NCBI RefSeq assembly: GCF_002585305.1
Contig: NZ_NUNF01000044.1
Span: 23,025 to 64,917, forward strand
Reading direction: 5' to 3'
DNA: 41,893 nucleotides
From: Bacillus sp. AFS037270
GTDB taxonomy: Bacteria; Bacillota; Bacilli; Bacillales_B; DSM-18226
The notes under the pieces were generated by a model, which was given only the letters and a program-made list of their open reading frames with translations, ran no database searches and was not told the origin of the DNA. Shown in pieces: positions 3,971-16,415 of the stretch; position 1 is the stretch's first letter, and every line of letters starts with the position of its first letter. A program made the translations under genes and the position numbers.

Positions 3971-4990
3971 TTAACCTAATATTCTTTGATAGATTGACTT
4001 GGCGTGGATCAAATCTTTTGTTCCGTGGATGAGCGCGCGGCCATCTTGAAAAATAACCATCCGTTCCGCGCCCATTTCAACCGATATCAAGTATGGATTG
4101 CCTTTAACTTGGTAACCTAGCTGACTTAGCTGTCCCGCAAGCTTCTCGAGCGAAACATCTCCATAACTAGACGGCCGGATCTGCACGGTGTCGCGGCCGC
4201 ACAGGACGGAGGTCTTTGTCATGTTTTCTTGGTCCAAATAAGGATAGGACCGCTCCTCGCCGCACGACAAGCAGCCGTGAAATTTAGCTTTGGACATTTT
4301 TAGGCTTGTGTATTGATTCCGCCATAAATCAAAGCTGACAAAGGTGGTCCGGACTGCTTCCCAGTCCTCGACCAGCATCTTCAAAGCCTCAGCGGTTTGG
4401 TGGGCGATGACCATTTGCACAGCGGGCGATATAATTCCTCCCGTATCGCAAGTCATTCCCTGAAGCGGGATGGTCCGCAGTAAACAATTCAAACATGGAG
4501 TTTTCCCGGGAATAATCGAAAAACTCATCCCAAAGCTGCCGACGCAGGCACCATAAATCCACGGAATATTGTATTTCTGGGAAACATCGTTCATAACCAT
4601 CCGGGTTTCAAAATTATCGGTCGCATCCATCATCAAATCAATACCAGCAACCAATTCTTCCAGCAGCTCCGGGGTAGCGTCGCCGATTATTCCCTGTATC
4701 TCTACATCTGAGTTAATTGCCCGGAGCCGTTTTTCCGCTGCAGCCGCTTTTGGCAGTTTTTCCGCTACATCCTCTTCGGTATACAGTTGTTGACGCTGAA
4801 GATTGCTCTCTTCCACATAATCTCTGTCAACGATGGTTATTTTTCCGACCCCAGCCCGTGTCAACACCTCGGCGCTCCCAGAGCCTAAGGCCCCTGCCCC
4901 AATGATGAGGACATGCTTTTGACTAATCTTTTTTTGCCCTTCCTTGCCGATTCCAGAAAAAAGGACCTGCCGTGAATAGCGCTCGTTCAT
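3971..4990 (-). CDS. moeB: MoeB/ThiF-type adenylyltransferase
   Basis: E1-like enzyme that adenylates the C-terminal glycine of the small sulfur carrier MoaD for molybdopterin synthesis; family members can also serve ThiS. The 339-aa protein has the nucleotide-binding GAGALGSG loop near residue 30, the DRDYVEESNLQRQ block, the MDATDNFETR block, a CDTGG motif with a conserved cysteine, and two CxxC pairs (CLNC and CLSC) for zinc. It has no rhodanese domain but an approximately 75-residue C-terminal extension usual for Bacillus homologues. The ATG at 4990 follows GGGGGGAGA. A hairpin lies between moaD and this gene, so it may be partly uncoupled from the operon. ThiF remains possible; the moaD/moaE context favours MoeB. 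Confidence 0.88.
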   Translation of the reverse strand: MNERYSRQVLFSGIGKEGQKKISQKHVLIIGAGALGSGSAEVLTRAGVGKITIVDRDYVEESNLQRQQLYTEEDVAEKLPKAAAAEKRLRAINSDVEIQGIIGDATPELLEELVAGIDLMMDATDNFETRMVMNDVSQKYNIPWIYGACVGSFGMSFSIIPGKTPCLNCLLRTIPLQGMTCDTGGIISPAVQMVIAHQTAEALKMLVEDWEAVRTTFVSFDLWRNQYTSLKMSKAKFHGCLSCGEERSYPYLDQENMTKTSVLCGRDTVQIRPSSYGDVSLEKLAGQLSQLGYQVKGNPYLISVEMGAERMVIFQDGRALIHGTKDLIHAKSIYQRILG

Positions 4991-5015
4991 AAAATCTCCC
5001 CCCAATCGATAAGAA

Positions 5016-5039
5016 AAACTCGCCTTACTTGGCGAGTTT
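5016..5039 (-). terminator. Hairpin terminator or attenuator between moaD and moeB
   Basis: AAACTCGCC and GGCGAGTTT form a 9-bp stem with a 6-nt loop; on the minus strand it runs into GTTTTTCTT. It sits inside the moaD-moeB gap and may reduce read-through into moeB. Confidence 0.65.
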
Positions 5040-5063
5040 CATTTTAGTTGAGCTGGTTTTACA

Positions 5064-5297
5064 TCAACCGCCGCTTACCGGTGGAATAAAAGCAACCTCA
5101 TCGCCTTCACGAATCACCTCATCATTTGAGGCAAACTCCTCATTAATAGCGGTCATCACGGTGTCCATCCGCGGCAAATCATATTTAGCCGCTAATTCCG
5201 CTTTCAATTCAGCAACCGTTTTTCCAGCTGCCTCTAGCGACAAAAACTCTTCACCAACAACATCACGCAAATGCGCAAAAAACAAGACCTTATTCAT
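5064..5297 (-). CDS. moaD: Molybdopterin synthase small subunit MoaD
   Basis: A 77-aa ubiquitin-fold sulfur carrier. Its C terminus ends PPVSGG: the terminal Gly-Gly that is adenylated by MoeB and thiocarboxylated before sulfur is given to precursor Z with MoaE. The FFAHLRDVVG start and EVAFIPPVSGG end are typical of the family. The ATG at 5297 lies 8 bp inside the end of moaE, so the two subunits are translationally linked. Confidence 0.95.
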   Translation of the reverse strand: MNKVLFFAHLRDVVGEEFLSLEAAGKTVAELKAELAAKYDLPRMDTVMTAINEEFASNDEVIREGDEVAFIPPVSGG

Positions 5298-5757
5298 CTA
5301 AATCACCCGCCTCCGGTTTACCGCTCGGATACGCAACCGTTTCAAGCTGATTGCCCATCCACTCTTCGCCATCCTCCCAATGTTCCTTCTTCCAGATCGG
5401 GACGATTTCTTTAATTCGTTCAATCGCATAGCGGTTAGCTTCATAAGCATCAGCGCGGTGCGGCGTCGAAACGGCAATCACGACCGCCACATCGGTAATA
5501 TCTAAACGGCCGACACGGTGCGTAATCGCCACCTTACAGCCTTCCCAGCGTTCCTCTATTTCCCGGCCAATCTGCTCCAGCTTCTTAACAGCCATCGCTT
5601 CATATGCCTCATAGATCAAAAACAAGGTTTTCTTGCCCTTCGTAAGTTCCCGGACGGTCCCGATAAAGGTTGTAATCGCACCGGCTTCACGTTGGATTAC
5701 TTTATCAATCACCGCTTGAATATCAATCGGTTCCTTTGAGATTTCATACAGCTTCAT
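5290..5757 (-). CDS. moaE: Molybdopterin synthase catalytic subunit MoaE
   Basis: The large subunit of molybdopterin synthase, which inserts two dithiolene sulfurs into cyclic pyranopterin monophosphate. The 155-aa protein shows AGAITTFIGTVRE near residue 30, the AVSTPHRADAYEAN substrate-binding block, and the IWKKEHWEDGEEW block with the active-site lysine. The ATG at 5757 overlaps the moeA-fusion stop codon (ATGA), and its end overlaps moaD, showing tight operon structure. Confidence 0.95.
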   Translation of the reverse strand: MKLYEISKEPIDIQAVIDKVIQREAGAITTFIGTVRELTKGKKTLFLIYEAYEAMAVKKLEQIGREIEERWEGCKVAITHRVGRLDITDVAVVIAVSTPHRADAYEANRYAIERIKEIVPIWKKEHWEDGEEWMGNQLETVAYPSGKPEAGDLDE

Positions 5758-7691
5758 TCTTTCACCTCTTCTGTTAAACGCTTAGGCACGGCGTTCTCCA
5801 CCACTTGGTAGCCGCCAATCTTCTCGACCTGTTCTTTAAAGACAGGTGATTGGATGAGCTTTATAAGCTGCCGGCCGCTGTCACTTTCAAAAAACTCTAG
5901 TTTCATCAATAAATCATATTCTTCATCGGCAACGGGAATAAAATCTAACCCCATCGCCTTTGCTGCTGGATAAATTCCTAATCCTGCAACAGACACATCA
6001 CCCTTCACTTCCGCCGCCACTGCTAGATGCGAAAACATCTCGCGCTCATAGCCAGTAATCTCCTCAGCAGTAAGGCCTGCCTCATCTAAAAGTAAATCAA
6101 ACAAAATGCGGGTACCAGCTCCTTTTTGCCGGTTTACAAAGTTGGCGTCAGTCCGAACTAAGTCTGTGACGGATTCAATTCCAAGCGGATTTCCCTGTGG
6201 CAGAATCCAGCCTTGCTTCCTTTTTAAAAAAGGATATAAAACAACATCTTGACCTGCCAAAAATTTATTTACATAAGATATATTGTACTGTTTTGTACTT
6301 GGGTCTAGCAAATGAATCCCCGCTACGTGGGCCTCACCTTTTCGAATCGCCATGATGCCAGCCATACTGCCGACATGGGAGGAGACGATTTTCATCTCTG
6401 TCCGTTCACGCTTCAGCTGAGATGATAACAAATCGATGGTTAGGTCATGGCTGCCGTTGAACACTATTGCTTTCTTGATTTCTTCAAGCGGTCGTAATAA
6501 TTCGACCTCGGCAGTATCTCCCTGTTCATAACCGCTGATATGAGGCGGAACAATTAACAGGCCGTCTGCTCTGACATAGGACATGGTGACCCCTGCTGCC
6601 CGTGTGAGCGGGTTGGCCACAAATTGTCCATTCACATAGCCGATATTCATTCGGATAAAATCCTCTGCCCCCATCGACGAAACGATACGGCGGCCAAGCT
6701 TGACCATTACCGTTTGCCGCTTAGGAACAGGAATACCTAAATACTTACAGATTAAAGGCTGGACAAACCATTCATGCGCCAAATAAGCTGACACCGGATA
6801 GCCCGGAACACCGACAACGATTTTTCCGTTTATTTTCCCTAAAATAACAGGTTTGCCAGGCCTTGCTGCGACCCCATGGGTAAACACTTCGCCAATTTCA
6901 GCAATGATGTGGACGGTAAAGTCCTTTCGTCCTGCCGAAGATCCGGCATTAATGACAATGATATCGGAGGTTTCCGCTGCTTCCAATAGGACTTCCTTAA
7001 TTTTTTCAGGCTCGTCCTTAACGATGCTAAGGAGACGCGGCTCGCCTCCCCAATCCTTCACAAATCCGGAAAAAACCGTGCCGTTAAACTCGATAATTTT
7101 CCCAGGTGCTAATTCAGAATGGGCCTCAACCAGTTCATTCCCCGTTGGAATAATCGTGACAACCGGTTTCTTAACAACTGGTACCGTCAGCTGCTGTGCC
7201 GCCAACAACACGCCTAAATCAGCTGGTCTTAACAAATGGCCTTGCGGAAACAGCATCTCTTCCTGCACAATATCCTCGCCAATCGGGCGGATATGCTGCC
7301 ATGGGGTGGCCGGTTCAATAATTTCAATTGTTTCTTCGTCAACGATATGAACATGCTCAATCATAATCACCGCATTAAAGGGTGCAGGAATCGCATTGCC
7401 CGTATCGACAAAACAAAATTGTTCACCAATCTTAAGGTATTGAGGATTTTGTTCGTGTGCCTGGTAGGTGCTTTCTGCTATAACAGCAATCCCATCCATT
7501 GCGGAGGCATGGTAGTGCGGCATGGATACATGTGCAAAAATTGGCTCGGCGGTCACACGGCCTAATGTCTCAACCGCTGGAATCATTTCCATTTCAGAGG
7601 TCTGCAGAAAAGCTGCAAGAATCTCATCTCTTGCTTCCGCCCGGGGTTTATCTTCTAAATAAATTTTACGTTGATATTGTTTTTGTTCCAT
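5754..7691 (-). CDS. MoeA fused to a periplasmic-binding-protein-like domain
   Basis: A 645-aa two-domain protein. Residues 1 to about 400 are MoeA-like (molybdopterin molybdotransferase), including GRVTAEPIFAH, the SAMDGIA block, GSSAGRKDFT and the PGKPVILG / GVPGYPVSAY blocks. Residues about 405-640 form a separate domain like the substrate-binding domain of molybdate-responsive LysR/ModE-type regulators and ABC binding proteins (IVFNGSHDLTIDLL; RKGEAHVAGIHLLDP; RKQGWILPQGNPLGI; RQKGAGTRILFD). This fusion is known in other bacteria and archaea, but its role is not settled; molybdate or cofactor sensing or delivery is an inference. There is no signal peptide, so the domain works in the cytosol. 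It follows a canonical moeA by 13 bp. Confidence 0.9.
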   Translation of the reverse strand: MEQKQYQRKIYLEDKPRAEARDEILAAFLQTSEMEMIPAVETLGRVTAEPIFAHVSMPHYHASAMDGIAVIAESTYQAHEQNPQYLKIGEQFCFVDTGNAIPAPFNAVIMIEHVHIVDEETIEIIEPATPWQHIRPIGEDIVQEEMLFPQGHLLRPADLGVLLAAQQLTVPVVKKPVVTIIPTGNELVEAHSELAPGKIIEFNGTVFSGFVKDWGGEPRLLSIVKDEPEKIKEVLLEAAETSDIIVINAGSSAGRKDFTVHIIAEIGEVFTHGVAARPGKPVILGKINGKIVVGVPGYPVSAYLAHEWFVQPLICKYLGIPVPKRQTVMVKLGRRIVSSMGAEDFIRMNIGYVNGQFVANPLTRAAGVTMSYVRADGLLIVPPHISGYEQGDTAEVELLRPLEEIKKAIVFNGSHDLTIDLLSSQLKRERTEMKIVSSHVGSMAGIMAIRKGEAHVAGIHLLDPSTKQYNISYVNKFLAGQDVVLYPFLKRKQGWILPQGNPLGIESVTDLVRTDANFVNRQKGAGTRILFDLLLDEAGLTAEEITGYEREMFSHLAVAAEVKGDVSVAGLGIYPAAKAMGLDFIPVADEEYDLLMKLEFFESDSGRQLIKLIQSPVFKEQVEKIGGYQVVENAVPKRLTEEVKE

Positions 7692-7704
7692 TGATTAAGA
7701 CCCC

Positions 7705-8937
7705 TTACCTTGATGGAATCACAGGAATCCATTCACCCTGTGAAACTCCTTCTTTTTCTGAACTAATCTCGACGAGACAATCGCTTTTTACCAATGTGGT
7801 AATCAAGCCGGATTTTCCGATAATCGGCTCAGCCCACCATTCGCCCTCTTTTTCAAACAGACGGGCGCGGATGTAATCGGCCCGGCCCATGGAGGATGGG
7901 ATATTTTTTGTTATTTTTGCAAATATCCGCTCCGGTTTACGGTCGCACTTTTCTCCTTTTAGCTTGCGGAGGACCCGTTCACCGAACAATTTAAAAATAA
8001 TCATCGCGCTGGCAGGATGTCCAGGCAGACCAATGACAGGCTTTCCATTTGCTAACGCCAGAATAGTAGGTTTTCCCGGTTTAATGCTTACTCCGTGGAC
8101 GAATACTCCCGGATCACCTAACGATTGAATGACATCTGTTGTATAGTCCTTCGCTCCAACAGAACTGCCCCCCGAAAGGATTAAACAATCGGCCTCATCA
8201 TATAGAGCGCGGGCACGCTCTTGAAACTCGTCAAAATCGTCACGGACAATCCCGCCGTACACAACCTCCACATTCCACTCCCGGGCTAGTCCTGCGATAG
8301 TTAGATAGTTAATATCGCGGATTTGCCCTTCTCGCAATGTTTCAGTTTGGTAAGGGACAATTTCATCACCGGAAGACAGATATCCGACCTTTAATTTTCT
8401 AAAGACCGTCACATGTGTAATACCTAAGGAGGCAAGAGCGCCTAATTCCTGCGGCCTAAGCTTAGTACCGCGGCCTAGAAGGATCTCCCCTTCTCGAATA
8501 TCTTCACCCGCCCGAATCACATTTTCACCGGGTGCAATCTGCCTGTATGTATTGAGGAGCGTATCGACATCCTCACAGTGTTCAATCATGATAACGCTGT
8601 CACTACCCTTTGGGAGCATGCCTCCAGTCGGCACATAAACGGCAGTTCCTTGGGTTACTTCCGCTGTTGGGACCTCGCCCATTTTCACCTCACCAGCAAC
8701 AGTCAAAAAGCCGGGCATGGATTCTGAGGAACCATATGTATCTTTCGCACGGACGGCGTAGCCATCAACAGTCGAGCGGTCAAAACTCGGCACATTTTCC
8801 TTGGCAGTCACCGGACTCGCTAAAATATAATGAAGGGCACGAGAGAGCTCTCTAATCTCTGTTTGCTCGATTGCCGGAATTTTTTCATCTATCAAGGTAA
8901 ATGTCTCTTCAACTGTTTTGACTTTGAAAAATTGCAT
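7705..8937 (-). CDS. moeA: Molybdopterin molybdenumtransferase MoeA
   Basis: MoeA inserts molybdate into adenylylated molybdopterin to give Mo-cofactor. The 410-aa length is standard. Family blocks visible include FDRSTVDGYAVRAKDT near residue 50, GEDIREGEILLGRGTKL, LSSGDEIVP, the GGSSVGAKDYT motif, VSIKPGKPTILA and GLPGHPASA. The ATG at 8937 lies 27 bp after mobA. It is the first of two adjacent moeA-type genes; the second carries an extra C-terminal domain, so their roles may differ. Confidence 0.95.
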   Translation of the reverse strand: MQFFKVKTVEETFTLIDEKIPAIEQTEIRELSRALHYILASPVTAKENVPSFDRSTVDGYAVRAKDTYGSSESMPGFLTVAGEVKMGEVPTAEVTQGTAVYVPTGGMLPKGSDSVIMIEHCEDVDTLLNTYRQIAPGENVIRAGEDIREGEILLGRGTKLRPQELGALASLGITHVTVFRKLKVGYLSSGDEIVPYQTETLREGQIRDINYLTIAGLAREWNVEVVYGGIVRDDFDEFQERARALYDEADCLILSGGSSVGAKDYTTDVIQSLGDPGVFVHGVSIKPGKPTILALANGKPVIGLPGHPASAMIIFKLFGERVLRKLKGEKCDRKPERIFAKITKNIPSSMGRADYIRARLFEKEGEWWAEPIIGKSGLITTLVKSDCLVEISSEKEGVSQGEWIPVIPSR

Positions 8938-8964
8938 GGTTCCCTAACTCCCCCTTAAGTAGTT

Positions 8965-9573
8965 CTACATGTTTGTAAAATCAGACTCAGCCCACTTTTT
9001 GGCCTCTGTATATTCCTCTGGATGGTTCATATTAAAAAAGACTTTAGCTAACTCGATATGACTGTAAGTTTCTAATTCCTTTTCGGTTAGGTACAAAACG
9101 TTCAAATGGTCGAGCAAATGTTTCATCCGCAGCTGACCTGCTTTAATCCGTTCCTCCACAATTGTCGCTGCTTGCTTTTTAAAAACAGCAAATAGCGGAT
9201 GCTGTTTGCCATTAATCACAGGTATGACCGCATCATAGTGCAAGGCATTGTTAACCAAGGCTTCGGCCAGCTCTCCAGAAACAAACGGCATATCACAGGC
9301 CACAATAAAATTAACATCGTAGGCTGACGCCATAAGGCCTGCGTGTACTCCGGCGAGAGGCCCCATGCCAGGGTATTGATCCGGGACCATTCGTACACCT
9401 AAAAATTCATATTGTTCAGAATCATTCGTTACTAGAATTATATCATCAAAAAGAAGTTTTAGCCTATCTGCTATTCTTTCAATATTCGTTTTTTCATTTA
9501 TTTTCAGCAAGGCTTTGTTGGTGCCCATCCGGCTGGATTTCCCGCCTGCTAGAATAATGGCTGCAGCTTTCAT
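8965..9573 (-). CDS. mobA: Molybdenum cofactor guanylyltransferase MobA
   Basis: MobA joins GMP from GTP to Mo-molybdopterin, producing the guanine-dinucleotide cofactor used by DMSO-reductase-family enzymes such as formate dehydrogenase. The 202-aa protein opens with the nucleotidyltransferase signature LAGGKSSRMGTNKALL (residues 8-23) and has PDQYPGMGPLAGVHAGL and the metal-binding VACDMPFV block. It lies 11 bp downstream of fdhE, which fits its use for the FdhA cofactor. Confidence 0.95.
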   Translation of the reverse strand: MKAAAIILAGGKSSRMGTNKALLKINEKTNIERIADRLKLLFDDIILVTNDSEQYEFLGVRMVPDQYPGMGPLAGVHAGLMASAYDVNFIVACDMPFVSGELAEALVNNALHYDAVIPVINGKQHPLFAVFKKQAATIVEERIKAGQLRMKHLLDHLNVLYLTEKELETYSHIELAKVFFNMNHPEEYTEAKKWAESDFTNM

Positions 9574-9584
9574 AAATTACCCTC

Positions 9585-10388
9585 TCAATGAACGACTTTT
9601 TTCTCCCTTACCGGAGAATATCCATTATCTTGAGCAACAATGTCAAGGTGAATGGATAAAAGATCTAATAAAGCAACTGAAGGCTTTGTTATAAATTGTT
9701 TTGTATCTATAATTTTAATATAGCCGTTACATTGTTCGCAAACCTGGATTTGCATAGCAGATTCGCCCTCAATTGATAAAAAGTGAATTGTTGTATGGTC
9801 TTCATTACCACAGTGTGAGCACTCTAAGCGTTTGGCATGCCAGTGGGCATGACAGCGCGGGCATTGAATGACCTTTTTTCCTTCCTCATCAAGTGTCGCA
9901 AGTCTCACCGGCTCAAAACAAACAGGACAGTATTCACTTATATTCATTCTTTCAACTTCTGGCTGAGCCTTTTCTGCAATTAATTGTAGGAAGGGACGGA
10001 GAGCAACCTCAGCAAGGAATTGCGGGAGTGATTCTAAGATTTCATGTTCTTCGGCGAATCGCTTAAAATAGGTATAGTCAACAAAAAAGGCCTCTCCAAA
10101 CCAATTAATTAGGGTTTCTTCCGTTAACAGACTGGGGATTTTTGATAGCTCTAATTCTAATTCGGGTTTAAATTCAATCATCAAATCTATTAATTCCATT
10201 ATCCACCGTTTGTATCTTGGCATATCCAACTCAAACTCGGCTAATTCAGCTATAGGAGCCCCAGCTTCTGCTTTATCAAAGTTAATTTTGAAGGGCCTCC
10301 ATTCTATTTGAAGCTTCCATTGTTCTTGAAGCTTGATAATTTCCTTTTGCAGTTCCTGGTATTCATTTGAAACAACGGATTTAATCAT
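9585..10388 (-). CDS. fdhE: Formate dehydrogenase accessory protein FdhE
   Basis: FdhE proteins bind iron and are needed for maturation of respiratory formate dehydrogenases. The 267-aa product has the family's cysteine layout in its second half: CPVCFEP, then CPRCHAHW, CSHCGNED and CEQCNGY, four CxxC pairs consistent with the rubredoxin-like metal sites of FdhE. I chose the ATG at 10388 (AGAGGTG upstream); the in-frame GTG at 10397 overlaps the ribosome binding site. It stands between fdhI and mobA and may start its own transcript, because a strong hairpin precedes it. Confidence 0.9.
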   Translation of the reverse strand: MIKSVVSNEYQELQKEIIKLQEQWKLQIEWRPFKINFDKAEAGAPIAELAEFELDMPRYKRWIMELIDLMIEFKPELELELSKIPSLLTEETLINWFGEAFFVDYTYFKRFAEEHEILESLPQFLAEVALRPFLQLIAEKAQPEVERMNISEYCPVCFEPVRLATLDEEGKKVIQCPRCHAHWHAKRLECSHCGNEDHTTIHFLSIEGESAMQIQVCEQCNGYIKIIDTKQFITKPSVALLDLLSIHLDIVAQDNGYSPVREKKVVH

Positions 10389-10427
10389 CGTTTGCACACC
10401 TCTTATATTAAATAGTTTTTGTGAGAA

Positions 10428-10536: not shown

Positions 10537-11250
10537 TTAAGCACCCCGTTTATGCTTAGGATCATCCAAGTTAGGGAAGTTGCCCTTTTTCACTTCTTCA
10601 TCATACCAATCCTCATAGTGTCCTTTTGCCCACCATGCCGGAACCTTACCTGTTACAACACCGGAATAACCTGGTCTAGAGTGTTTGTGAACAACAGACA
10701 GGTAAATGTGTCCGACAATAACCGCAATTCCTAAGCCAAAGCCAATGTTATGAAGGACGTAACCCCATTGAACAAGTGCTCTCGGGAAATATTCAGGAAA
10801 CCACATCGTAAAGCCTGAAGCGATAACCAAAATTGCACAGAAAATTTGCAAAATGGAGTTAATCTTTTCACCTGCATTAAAGAATGTTTGTCTTATATGC
10901 CCAAACTTAAAGCCAAACAATTCTTTGACGAAATTACCGAAAAATTCGAGATCACGCTTTTTCCATGTGACTAATTCTTTCATCCAAAGAAAAAGGAACT
11001 TCGGACTAAAAATTAACAAGATGAATGTAGGCGTTATGAACGCTACTGCGAAAATTCGGTGCAATAGCCGTGCCATGGCTGGTCCGCCGAAAACGGGATA
11101 CAGCCAGTCAAAGAATTCGGTATACATTGGAAGGGCCGTGATGTATAGGGCAAAGAAGGCAATTCCATTAATGGCATGTGCCCAAACAAATGCCTTTGGG
11201 AAGCGGCGAATTTGCTCATTAGCTTTCGGATGCTTCTGATTATTACTCAT
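10537..11250 (-). CDS. fdhI: Formate dehydrogenase cytochrome b subunit (FdnI/FdoI type)
   Basis: Membrane anchor that carries two b haems and passes electrons from the iron-sulfur subunit to the quinone pool. The 237-aa protein has four hydrophobic segments (about residues 20-42, 55-80, 125-148 and 160-185 in FVWAHAINGIAFFALYIT, LLHRIFAVAFITPTFILLIF, ILQIFCAILVIASGFTMWF and YVLHNIGFGLGIAVIVGHIYLSVVH) with histidines in helices 1, 2 and 4 placed as in FdnI. The ATG at 11250 overlaps the end of fdhB by 8 bp and has GGAGGTGA upstream; a longer in-frame start within fdhB is not credible. Confidence 0.93.
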   Translation of the reverse strand: MSNNQKHPKANEQIRRFPKAFVWAHAINGIAFFALYITALPMYTEFFDWLYPVFGGPAMARLLHRIFAVAFITPTFILLIFSPKFLFLWMKELVTWKKRDLEFFGNFVKELFGFKFGHIRQTFFNAGEKINSILQIFCAILVIASGFTMWFPEYFPRALVQWGYVLHNIGFGLGIAVIVGHIYLSVVHKHSRPGYSGVVTGKVPAWWAKGHYEDWYDEEVKKGNFPNLDDPKHKRGA

Positions 11251-12067
11251 GGCCCTCACCTCCGTCTTCATGACCTTGTGTTTTTTTACTGATAATGGTA
11301 TTCGTAATAAATGCTCCGACAATTGCCATGGTTGTTGCACCTAGCATCATTTTGCCGACTGGCTGTGCATAGTCTTTCCAAACAACCGCAGAGGTTGGAA
11401 CCTTAGGGTTTTCCGGAAGGCCATATACACTTGGTTTTTCAGCTAGTAAATAGATCGTATGCGTGCCGCCAACACCCTGCGGATTATAGATATTCGCATT
11501 TGGAAAACGGTCTTTCACTTCACTTAAGCGTTTTTGTGCTATGGCAAGCATGTCATCTTTTTTGCCAAACTGCATCGCGTCTGTATGGCAGGTTGTTACA
11601 CAGGCAGGCTGCAAACCTTCTTCAAGACGATCGGTACACATCGTACACTTTTGAGATTTTTGATATTCTTTACCCTTCTTATCTTTGTAAGTCTTTAATG
11701 AGATGACTTCAAATGGACAGTTTTGTACGCAATAGCCGCAGCCTACGCACTTATCATGGTCAATTACAACAGACCCAAATTTTGAGTAGCTGATGGCGTT
11801 CTCAGGACATACCTTTTCACAGGCTGCCGTATCACAATGGAAGCAGGATGAGTGACGGAAGAGGTATTCTAAATCGCCTTTTCCGTTTTCATGCTCTACA
11901 TATTGGAGAACATTCCATGTATCAGCACTAGTCTTTGGATGTGATTGAGCACTTCCTTGGAATGCGGTTACTTCTGCCGGAAGGTCATTCCAGTTTTTAC
12001 AGGCAACCATACAGGCCTTACAGCCATCACATCTGGTAACGTCAACGTATTTTACGTATTCAGCCAT
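11243..12067 (-). CDS. fdhB: Formate dehydrogenase iron-sulfur subunit (FdnH type)
   Basis: Electron-transfer subunit linking FdhA to the cytochrome b. The 274-aa protein has sixteen cysteines in four ferredoxin-type groups: CDGCKACMVAC (residues 13-23), CFHCDTAACEKVCP, CVGCGYCVQNCP and CTMCTDRLEEGLQPACVTTC, giving four [4Fe-4S] clusters. A single C-terminal membrane helix (AQPVGKMMLGATTMAIVGAFITNTII) anchors it, as in E. coli FdnH. AAGGAGGG precedes the ATG at 12067. It starts 2 bp after the fdhA stop codon. Confidence 0.95.
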   Translation of the reverse strand: MAEYVKYVDVTRCDGCKACMVACKNWNDLPAEVTAFQGSAQSHPKTSADTWNVLQYVEHENGKGDLEYLFRHSSCFHCDTAACEKVCPENAISYSKFGSVVIDHDKCVGCGYCVQNCPFEVISLKTYKDKKGKEYQKSQKCTMCTDRLEEGLQPACVTTCHTDAMQFGKKDDMLAIAQKRLSEVKDRFPNANIYNPQGVGGTHTIYLLAEKPSVYGLPENPKVPTSAVVWKDYAQPVGKMMLGATTMAIVGAFITNTIISKKTQGHEDGGEGHE

Positions 12068-12069
12068 CG

Positions 12070-15054
12070 TTAAGCCCTCCTTATGTCACATAGGAATGCT
12101 TTATATTCCGGAATCATCGTGTTGGCATCCCCAATATGTGGAGTCAGGCGGTTGGCTGTAGCTCCTGTTGCATACCCTTTGTATCCAAAATTCCATGGCA
12201 TTCCAATTTGATGCACCTTTTTGCCTTTAACCGTAAACGGCTTGTAGCGCTTTGTGACCAATGCATAGGCTTCAATTTTGCCGCGCGCAGAGGTAACAAT
12301 GACTTTGTCCTTATTTGTGATGCCTTTCTCTTTAGCCAATTCTTCACTTATTTCCACATACATATATCGTGCAATCTCTGCCAGCCATTCTTGGTTACGT
12401 GTCATCGAACCTGACTGCCAGTGTGCTTCGACCCGATAGGTGGTTGCAACAATCGGGTAGTCCACCTTGAAGCCGCGTTTGTTAAAATCTCCATCATTAA
12501 TGACAATTGCAGGGTTATATTCTACTGATGAGAATGCATTTGGTACTGGGCTTTCATATGGCTCATAGTGTTCTGGGAATGGGCCGTCATTCATAGTTGG
12601 AGCAAATAATAATGCAACACCGTCTTTGTTCATCATGAAAGCACCTGTTCCGCCTGGATCAGTTGGGGCTGTAACTGCTTTAAAGTCAGGGACATCATTT
12701 CCGACCCATTTTTTTTGAGCAGCATCCCACCAAATCACTGCTTTTTCCTGGCTCCATGGCTTACCGCTAGGATCAGCTGCTGCGCGGTTGTAAAGAATTC
12801 GGCGGTTTGCCGGCCATGCAAAGGACCAGTTTAAGAAGTTTCCGCCGCCTGTATCCTTATTATCACGGCGTTGGGAAAGATTTTTTCCCTCTTCGGGATA
12901 GAAGCCGGAATAAATCCAGTTACCGCTTGAAGTTGTGCCATCATCTTTTAAATCACCAAAGGTCTTTAATAATTTGCCAGTTTTAAGATCGTAGCCATTG
13001 ATTTCTTTGGCAATTTGGTCTAAATCTGGCGCTTCGCCCATGCCATAATTCCAATCAAGTGCTAAGAATGGCTTGTCAGCAGATTTTGGACTGTTTGCAT
13101 ATAGCTTTTTAAGCTTCACAGCCAGCTCATGGACGATATCAAGGTCCGGACGAGACTCGCCTTTTGGCTCAATCGCTTTCCAGCGGTATTGCATCCAGCG
13201 GGAGCTGTTTGAAATACTTCCTTCTTTTTCAAAAGAAGAACAGGCTGGAAGCAGGAAGACTTCTGTATTGATCTTGGCTGGGTCATTGCCGGCTTCTTTT
13301 TGCCAGAAGGCTGACGTTTCAGTCTCCCATAGGTCAACCGCTATCAGCCATTTGAGGTTACCAAGAGCTTCCTTTTCCTTGCCGGCGTTCGGTCCGCCGA
13401 CAACAGGATTGGTGCCCCAAAGGAACGCACCCTCAAGTTCATTGTTGTACATGGCCTTAAATAAGTTAATATGTGAGTAGTTCTTATTCCCCTTCGGCAG
13501 GAAGTGGTACCCAAACTCATTATCCTTCGTTGCATTGGTGCCATACCAAGATTTCAATAGGCTGACAACAAATTTAGGTTTGTTGCTCCAATAGCCTGAT
13601 GGCGGAGTTTCTTTTTTCAAGTATCCGGCAAGTGTAGCATGTTCAGGAACCGTTGCTTTTGGCGCAGCAAGGTAGCCCGTTAAGTTATCCCACAGTAAAC
13701 CGAAATCGGTAGAACCTTGAACGTTGGATTCGCCGCGCATTGCATTGATTCCTCCGCCTGGCAGCCCAATATTACCTAAGAGAAGCTGCAGGATGGCAAA
13801 GATTCGGACGTTTTGAGAACCAACTGTATGCTGAGTAGTCCCCATCGCGTAGAGAATCGTACCTGATTTACCCACTTTTCCTGTTTCACAAAAGGCTTTA
13901 CAAACCTTCATGTAATCTTCTTTTGGTGTTCCTGTTACGGCTGTTACGGTATCCACATCGTAGCGGGAATAGTGTTGTTTCATTAATTGAAAGACCGAAC
14001 GAGGATGCTGTAACGTTTCATCCTTCACCGGTTTTCCATCAGGAGTGGTTTCAATCACCCATTTTGTTTTATCGTAAACTCGTTTTGCTTCATCATAACC
14101 GGAGAAAAGACCATCTTTAAAATCGTAGCCCTCCTTCACGATAAAAGAAGCATTCGTATATTTCACAACATACTCTTTATGAATGAGATTGTTTTCAATA
14201 GCATATTTAATCATACCGCCAACAAACGGAATATCCGTTCCAGAACGAAGCGGGGCATAGAGATCAGATACCGCAGATGTACGTGTATAACGTGGATCCA
14301 CGCTGATAATTTTTCCGCCTTTTTCTTTCGCCTTTGTCAGCCATCTAAAACTGATTGGATGATTTTCAGCAGGATTTGCTCCCATAATGAGGGCACAATC
14401 TGTCCACTGAAGGTCATTCCAGTGATTTGTCATTGCTCCACGACCAAATGTAGGTGCCAGACCGGCAACCGTAGAACTATGTCATATTCGTGCCTGGTGC
14501 TCTAAGTAAGTCACACCAAGCCCTCTCATTAATTTTGATACTAGATAAGTTTCTTCGTTATCAAGTGCCGCGCCGCCAAGGCTGGCAATCTTTTCTGTTT
14601 TGTTTACGATGATGCCTGCTTCTTTCTCAACAAATGAAGCATCACGTGTATCTTTCGTACGTTTGGCAATGGTGTCAAGCATCCATTCCCAATCTTTTTC
14701 TTCCCACTTATTGCTCCCAGGAGCACGATATAGTGGTTTTGTCAGCCGTTTTTCAGATGTATATATTTGGCGTAATGTCGTTCCTTTACTGCATAGCTTA
14801 CCTTCGTTAATTGGGTTATCCGGATCCCCTTCCGTATAAACCACGGTATTATTTTTGGTGTGGACGAGTATCCCGCATCCTACACCACAAAAGCAGCAAA
14901 TGGTTGGTGTTACAGTAGCTTTGGCAATCTTGAAATCTTTTGTTTTTGCATAGGCTTTTTTATCATTAAAACCTAGTTCAACTACTGCAAGGGTAGCAGC
15001 CGTTGCACCAGATAGTTTTAAGAATTGCCGGCGGTTTAAGTTCATTTCAACCAT
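12070..15054 (-). CDS. fdhA: Selenocysteine formate dehydrogenase catalytic subunit
   Basis: Catalytic subunit oxidising formate to CO2 with a molybdopterin-guanine-dinucleotide, one [4Fe-4S] cluster and selenocysteine. The coding region contains an in-frame TGA at 14482-14484 (residue 191) in the context HQARI-Sec-HSSTVAGLAPTFGRGAMTN, the position of Sec196 in E. coli FdnG. Upstream and downstream parts are in the same frame (994 aa including Sec), and a SECIS-like hairpin follows the TGA. An automated caller would split this into two genes or call a pseudogene. A twin-arginine signal (NRRQFLKLSG, residues 7-16) predicts export. Cysteines 53, 56, 60 and 88 bind the cluster. The ATG at 15054 follows AAGGAG. 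Both C-terminal blocks of the molydopterin-binding domain are present, so I see no decay. Confidence 0.95.
14453..14484 (-). promoter_or_regulatory. SECIS-like element in fdhA
   Basis: Starting 11 nt after the UGA, the mRNA reads GGUUGCC-GGUCU-GGCACC. UGCC pairs with GGCA, flanking GG pairs with CC, one U is bulged and the apical loop is GGUCU. E. coli fdhF SECIS has the same bulged U and GGUCU loop, the features recognised by SelB. This makes selenocysteine insertion, not termination, the expected reading. Confidence 0.9.
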
Positions 15055-15100
15055 CACTATTCTCCTTCCCAAAAATGATTAGACATCCCTCTATAAGCTT

Positions 15101-15176: not shown

Positions 15177-15953
15177 TTAATTCCCCCCTTCAACGGTTCT
15201 CTCAAAGTCTATTTCTTGGGTAATATCATTTTTGACTCTTCCTGAAGAGGTATAAATGACAGCCATTTTTCCTCTTAAATAGCCGATTACCTCTATATTT
15301 AAAAATTTCGCCAGCTGCACAGCCTGTTTGGTAGCGGCCGTACGGGAGCCGATTACAGGAAAGCCAAATTTCGCCGCCTTTGAGAGCATTTCATATGAAA
15401 CCCTTCCAGTTGTAAGTAAAATCAACCGTTCAGGAGGTAAACCCTTTCTTAGTGCATAGCCAATAATTTTATCCACCGCATTATGGCGGCCGATATCCTC
15501 ACGGATCGTGATTGCGCCATCCTCCTCCACAATACAAGCGCCATGCATTCCACCGGTTTCTAGATAAAGAGACGATTTTCCAGCAAATTCACTTCTCTTT
15601 TTTAATAGATAACTTAAGTCATATTTTTGACCTGAGGACACTTCGGCAAAGCCTTTGACATCCGTCATTGAGAAGAAGGTGACACCTCTGCCGCATCCGG
15701 CCGTATAGTGTTTCTTTTTCGAAAAAAATTGGTCTTCATCAAAATGGGAGTGAAGGGTAACGTGGATTGCTCCCATATTTTCATCTATGTTGACAGCTTC
15801 AATATCGTTTGCATCCTGAATAAATCCTTCAGAAAACAAATATCCGTATGCCCAATCTTTCAGGTCATATTTCGTTAATTGAAAAACAGCTATTTCGCAG
15901 CTGTTTAGATGTAAGGATATTGGATATTCATCGGGACAGCTCTTACGGTTCAT
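15177..15953 (-). CDS. fdhD: Formate dehydrogenase accessory sulfurtransferase FdhD
   Basis: FdhD transfers sulfur from a cysteine desulfurase to the Mo-cofactor, which formate dehydrogenase needs for activity. The 258-aa protein matches the family from DLKDWAYGYLFSEGFI through ITIREDIGRHNAVDKIIGYAL and LTTGRVSYEMLSKAAKFGFPVIGSRTAATKQAVQLA. Two departures: the N-terminal segment before the first strand is short, and the usual CxxC loop is TAGCGRGVTF with one cysteine in place of E. coli's CGVCG. The ATG at 15953 follows GAGGAGGAGGG; the longer in-frame start uses the ribosome binding site itself. It is the first gene of the fdh run. Confidence 0.9.
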   Translation of the reverse strand: MNRKSCPDEYPISLHLNSCEIAVFQLTKYDLKDWAYGYLFSEGFIQDANDIEAVNIDENMGAIHVTLHSHFDEDQFFSKKKHYTAGCGRGVTFFSMTDVKGFAEVSSGQKYDLSYLLKKRSEFAGKSSLYLETGGMHGACIVEEDGAITIREDIGRHNAVDKIIGYALRKGLPPERLILLTTGRVSYEMLSKAAKFGFPVIGSRTAATKQAVQLAKFLNIEVIGYLRGKMAVIYTSSGRVKNDITQEIDFERTVEGGN

Positions 15954-16415
15954 ACATTCCCTCCTCCTCAAGGATATTTTCCGTATTTATTATTGTAAAA
16001 ATAGGACCCATGTCACTCAGCGATTTAAGTCACAGCATTAAGAGGAACTGCCTATTGAAAGCGAGATATTAGTAATAAAAGTATTTAGACTCCCGTAAAA
16101 AATCCCGGCATTACCACACTGTGATTATTTGTGTCAGATTTCTAACAAATTAACTCTTGTCGCTAGATATGATATTCACCTCAGAAAACGGTTACATTTT
16201 TAGACTACGTTGCTTTTGTATTTATCGTACTTCTCTACCAATATTTTGAAAGTAATATTTATCACTTGGGATGGTTTCTAATAGTACTATTGGTCTATTT
16301 GTCATTTTTTTGTAACTATTAACTGCAAACGATTTGTCCATTGTCGATTCATGTTATATTTTTTATTTTGATTTATAATAAGGAAGGAGTTATTTTTCAA
16401 AAGGAGGTTTACATA
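15954..16415. other. Intergenic region between fdhD and pdxK (divergent promoters)
   Basis: About 460 bp without a credible gene, AT-rich, separating divergent fdh and pdxK transcripts. A weak FNR-like site, TGTGA-N6-TCGCT on the minus strand at 16019-16034 (8 of 10 fixed bases), lies about 65 bp before fdhD. Near pdxK, TTGTCC (16334-16339) and TATATT (16355-16360) could be a promoter but have only a 15-bp spacer. Nothing else is recognised. Confidence 0.45.

Follow-up and report, generated by a model that had tools for sequence, protein, structure and literature searches.

A formate dehydrogenase-N gene with an in-frame UGA codon probably read as selenocysteine

A gene on the minus strand of a 41,893-nucleotide stretch of DNA from Bacillus sp. 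AFS037270 (the window, hereafter) contains a UGA at codon 191 which, judging from its sequence and those of its relatives, is almost certainly read as selenocysteine (Sec), and it would thereby encode the alpha subunit of formate dehydrogenase-N in one piece. As a selenium-containing formate dehydrogenase the gene is unexceptional and of an already known kind. Its predicted product would carry molybdenum and serve as the alpha subunit of a formate dehydrogenase-N that is exported by the Tat route and bound to the membrane. The hairpin just 3′ of the UGA would bind SelB, which would deliver Sec-tRNA(Sec) to the ribosome and outcompete release factor 2 at the UGA. From established knowledge of the family, the Sec side chain would ligate the active-site molybdenum, and formate oxidation would feed the quinone pool.

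The frame runs over 995 codons from the ATG at 15054 to the TAA at 12072-12070, and the TGA at 14484-14482 is its sole internal stop. The other five frames across 12070-15054 contain 37, 39, 48, 49 and 86 stops; the openness of one frame on both sides of the TGA is therefore not a matter of chance. An earlier note on this DNA had placed the TGA and the two flanking parts in one frame and had foreseen that gene callers would break the gene into pieces of 196 and 787 residues. Both statements were borne out, and the open reading frame listing gives exactly these two pieces. The translation from the ATG at 15045, with Cys substituted for Sec, scored 1278 bits against the formate dehydrogenase-N alpha model TIGR01553, whose cut-off is 814.2, over residues 3-989, that is, over its whole length. 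PF04879 (Fe4S4), PF10518, PF00384 (in the long piece) and PF01568 all exceeded their cut-offs. Codon numbers in the comparative tests described below also start at the ATG at 15045, which makes the TGA codon 188 there. The features of the gene and its neighbors are collected in Table 1.

Table 1 Features of the formate dehydrogenase gene and of neighboring genes in the window.
Feature	Position	Strand	Remarks
fdnG/fdhA, formate dehydrogenase-N alpha subunit (predicted)	12070..15054	-	994 residues, Sec at 191
Shine-Dalgarno sequence AAGGAG	15062..15067	-	7 nt before ATG 15054; found by eye
Twin-arginine (Tat) signal	14983..15042	-	PF10518 27.1 bits, cut-off 22.7
In-frame UGA, predicted Sec codon	14482..14484	-	TGA in 75/78 relatives; aligns with X of 1h0h
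SECIS element of the Rfam SECIS_3 (RF01989) type	14429..14487	-	61.0 bits, E 6e-14 in 401 bases searched
Minimal SECIS helix, 6 pairs, bulged U, GGUCU loop	14453..14470	-	starts 12 nt after the UGA
Iron-sulfur beta subunit, fdnH-like	11243..12067	-	TIGR01582 222.3 bits, best of 71 families, below cut-off of 334.7
Cytochrome b gamma subunit, fdnI-like	10537..11340 (ORF as listed)	-	TIGR01583 82.2 bits, below cut-off of 115.85
FdhE-like accessory protein	9585..10397	-	TIGR01562 62.5 bits, below 187.65; PF24860 32.0, above 27
FdhD, formate dehydrogenase sulfurtransferase	15177..15971	-	TIGR00129 166.4 bits, cut-off 140.9; PF02634 224.5
mobA-like, moeA-like, moeA fusion, moaE-like and moeB/thiF-like genes (molybdenum cofactor)	3971..9573	-	best NCBIfam names

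The genes around the alpha subunit appear to be of matching types. In the beta-subunit gene the 4Fe-4S domains exceed their cut-off, and in the gamma-subunit gene PF01292 does so with 58.5 bits (cut-off 30.1); the true start of the latter probably lies near 11250. Within 3971..9573 the families above cut-off are NF011068 (5754-7691), NF009123 (3971-5005) and TIGR00177, the last in both MoeA-like proteins, while the MobA and MoaE matches fall below cut-off. The MoeA-like protein at 5754-7691, with 720.2 bits to NF011068 (cut-off 534), adjoins the second MoeA-like gene. Elsewhere in the window, the gene at 19463-21325 matches TIGR04246, a nitrous-oxide reductase family, at 895.9 bits (cut-off 625); the “Sec-dependent” in the name of that family refers to Sec secretion, not to selenocysteine.

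Downstream of the UGA, the match to SECIS_3 spans the whole model, at 2 bits under the Rfam gathering score of 63, and no Rfam family was reported when the window was scanned in full at gathering scores. Since the gathering score was missed, we call the element a SECIS of the SECIS_3 type and not a formal member of the family. The SECIS_2 model (RF01988) also matched over its whole length at the same place, with 20.9 bits compared with a gathering score of 70. Read from 14470 to 14453, the letters are GGU-U-GCC-GGUCU-GGC-ACC, in agreement with the hairpin with a bulged U and a GGUCU loop that had been described at SECIS distance. Folding of the mRNA after the TGA had been proposed earlier as a check. 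The 55-nt segment alone folds at -16.9 kcal/mol with a z of -1.42, and 18 of 200 shuffles fold equally well or better, which is unexceptional; in its minimum-energy structure the GCC:GGC half of the minimal helix forms, but the full helix is absent. It is the covariance model, together with the relatives' sequences, that makes the hairpin convincing; the fold in isolation is weak.

For this comparison, a genome scan found 106 relatives of the gene, 80 of which were kept. The SECIS alignment comprised 76 sequences, 48 of them distinct. Across the distinct sequences, the minimal helix was paired in 96.2% of 288 cells, compared with 34.0-50.3% in slid controls. Two of the six pairs showed changes on both sides, as did 2 to 3 pairs in slid controls. 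For the full Rfam structure, 83.3% of cells were paired and both-sided changes occurred at 5 pairs (5 to 6 in slid controls); the outer helix was weak, with 73.6% of cells paired and one pair unpaired in 45 of the 48 sequences. Support from covariation is thus thin and no better than in slid controls, but the pairing itself holds. RNAalifold recovered five of the six minimal-helix pairs from the 76-sequence alignment, with a covariation term of -0.02. When 57 distinct, longer sequences were folded to a consensus, an upstream GGCA paired with the UGCC of the SECIS and displaced the SECIS helix. At the codon level, codons 192-196 (numbered from the ATG at 15045), which lie in the SECIS, were invariant in all 66 loci with 60% identity or more and ranked first for synonymous conservation among 237 windows of five codons; only 8 of the 418 scorable positions were invariant across all 66 loci.

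The machinery for selenocysteine is widespread among the relatives. SelB was above cut-off in 48 of 50 genomes (exceptions G032 and G038), tRNA-Sec in 49 of 50 (exception G038), and SelA and SelD each in 16 of 17. Every SelD match over cut-off contains one TGA, which suggests that SelD itself is likely a selenoprotein. Of 14 well-known control genomes, 2 were above cut-off for SelB, 5 for tRNA-Sec, 1 for SelA and 2 for SelD; the tRNA model alone is therefore not specific. ARAGORN predicted 17 tRNA-SeC genes with a TCA anticodon, in 12 of the 14 relatives' loci. The consistent exception is the metagenome-assembled genome (MAG) G038 (locus L049), in which the TGA-containing gene is present but SelA, SelB, tRNA-Sec and SelD all fail to reach their cut-offs. 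This gap may be evidence against the Sec reading, or it may be an artefact of the bin, through a mis-binned contig or an incomplete bin. In genome G044, the SelB match contains one TGA and the SelA match two, and the formate dehydrogenase is split over two frames; the internal stops are likely draft errors. From established knowledge of these families, the genome of the window presumably carries the sel genes and would insert Sec at the UGA, the direct observations being the frame, the TGA, the SECIS match, its conservation, the enzyme family and the sel genes of the relatives.

The family of the nearest relative (G026) gives a broader picture. SelB was found in 170 of its 193 genomes and the enzyme in 121, counted at E up to 1e-200 with fragments and distant copies included. 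The two occurred together in 119 genomes and were both absent from 21; 51 genomes had SelB but not the enzyme, and 2, the MAGs G032 and G118, had the enzyme but no SelB. SelB therefore accompanied the enzyme in 119 of 121 genomes and occurred in 51 of the 72 without it (Fisher p 1.6e-8, the genomes not being independent of one another). Sec use is common in this family, contrary to the earlier description of it as patchy in Bacillaceae. In the open-access literature that we searched, no paper turned up on selenocysteine in Neobacillus or on “selenocysteine utilization” in Bacillaceae, which has little bearing on what is in print generally.

As a separate observation, five relatives (L101, L102, L103, L104 and L109) have a second tRNA-Sec gene, separated from the first by some 1 to 16 kb. 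When 10 open reading frames of L102 and L103 were scanned, a phage integrase was found to adjoin one tRNA-Sec copy in L103, and a SIR2-domain protein and an ABC-3C-type-domain protein lay between the copies in L102. With such neighbors, selC looks like an insertion site of mobile elements.

The UGA could instead be read as Cys, Trp or Ser, via suppression or a reassigned code. Such decoding would be compatible with the sequence alone, and misinsertion under selenium scarcity is conceivable. We nevertheless consider it very improbable, given a SECIS at the expected place, tRNA-SeC genes with the TCA anticodon in the loci of relatives, and a gene that holds a single internal TGA.

The codon itself was covered in 78 of the 80 relatives (L054 and L068 begin past it), being TGA in 75 and a Cys codon in three (L042, L065 and L071). 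Cysteine is the usual substitute for selenocysteine. The genome of L042 also contains a second copy of the enzyme, with one TGA. The original interpretation of the gene as a selenoprotein formate dehydrogenase is upheld in the position and number (191) of the codon, the read-through, the letters of the hairpin and the predicted splitting by gene callers. A single base change separates the Cys codons TGC and TGT from TGA, and with Cys present in three relatives the TGA might be taken for a mutation in a pseudogene, or for a Cys codon miscalled in sequencing. Retention of the TGA at the same codon in so many relatives, the invariant SECIS codons and the conservation of the downstream part as protein make this even less probable than decoding as another amino acid. 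After the TGA, the sequence differs from that of L036 at 298 nucleotides; 264 of these differences are at third positions and 26 amino acids change, indicating that this part is constrained as protein. Just as improbable is the separate synthesis, each from its own open frame, of a Tat/Fe-S peptide of 190 residues and a protein of 787 residues begun at an internal ATG at 14433. The codon at 14433 is ATG in all 66 loci and lies inside the PF00384 domain; the break cuts this domain, leaving profile positions 99-351 in the long piece and 1-74 in the short one (below cut-off, 21.8 vs 24).

With the UGA taken as a Sec codon, the codons upstream of it can be considered as well. The five codons before the UGA (14485-14499) ranked fifth of the 237 windows for synonymous conservation, the top four being in the SECIS. 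Immediately before the UGA, 65 of the 66 loci with 60% identity or more have ATA. Elsewhere in these genes ATA accounts for 198 of 3073 Ile codons, fewer than any other Ile codon, and its share does not exceed 7.7% at any of the 19 further positions with a conserved Ile. The nine TGA-containing loci of less than 60% identity have ATC (5), ATA (2) or CTC (2) at this place; of the three loci with Cys, two have ATC and one has CTC. The conservation of ATA may come partly from shared descent. A tentative possibility, which we rate as rather unlikely, is that the recoding signal in this group reaches 5′ of the UGA and that the preceding codon is held at ATA. SelB may then be favored over release factor 2 by a P-site AUA that is decoded slowly, by the A that directly precedes the UGA, or by RNA pairing upstream. 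An outer pairing, CACGA:UCGUG, was rejected as an explanation of the upstream conservation: among 57 distinct sequences, its two synonymous-site pairs are present in 39 and 47, and compensatory change is not clearly seen. A general rule of ATA before Sec UGA codons was also rejected, as SelD has GGT there in both of the loci, out of four, that yielded its frame (L098 and L100).

For annotation, these results mean that the gene and its relatives are each to be recorded as one selenoprotein, neither as a pseudogene nor as a pair of fragments. The 121 enzyme-bearing genomes of the family also offer a natural alignment in which to ask whether the codons upstream of the Sec UGA are under selection.

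The closest known counterparts are in Neobacillus, Mesobacillus and their relatives, whose gene has both the TGA and the SECIS in common with the present one and a protein identity of up to 97%. The nearest is that of N. cucumis V32-6 (97% protein identity), followed by that of Bacillus sp. ISL-18 (95%). At the nucleotide level, over 2970 compared bases, the present gene differs from these two at 363 (L036) and 315 (L001) positions. Differences of this number suggest that the source of the window is probably a species distinct from its nearest relatives, and we infer a placement in a Neobacillus-like species. Solved formate dehydrogenases were matched over their full length, several of them named as selenocysteine-containing by their depositors (6sdr and 1h0h among the Sec-containing ones). 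Residues 38-991 matched the Sec-containing 1h0h at 1052.3 bits, and the X in its ARIXHS motif aligns with the UGA residue of the present gene. E. coli FdnG (1kqf) was matched by residues 1-991 at 953.3 bits, and its Sec presumably sits at the site of the present UGA. The adjoining beta and gamma genes best match TIGR01582 and TIGR01583 of the formate dehydrogenase-N complex, both below the NCBIfam cut-offs.
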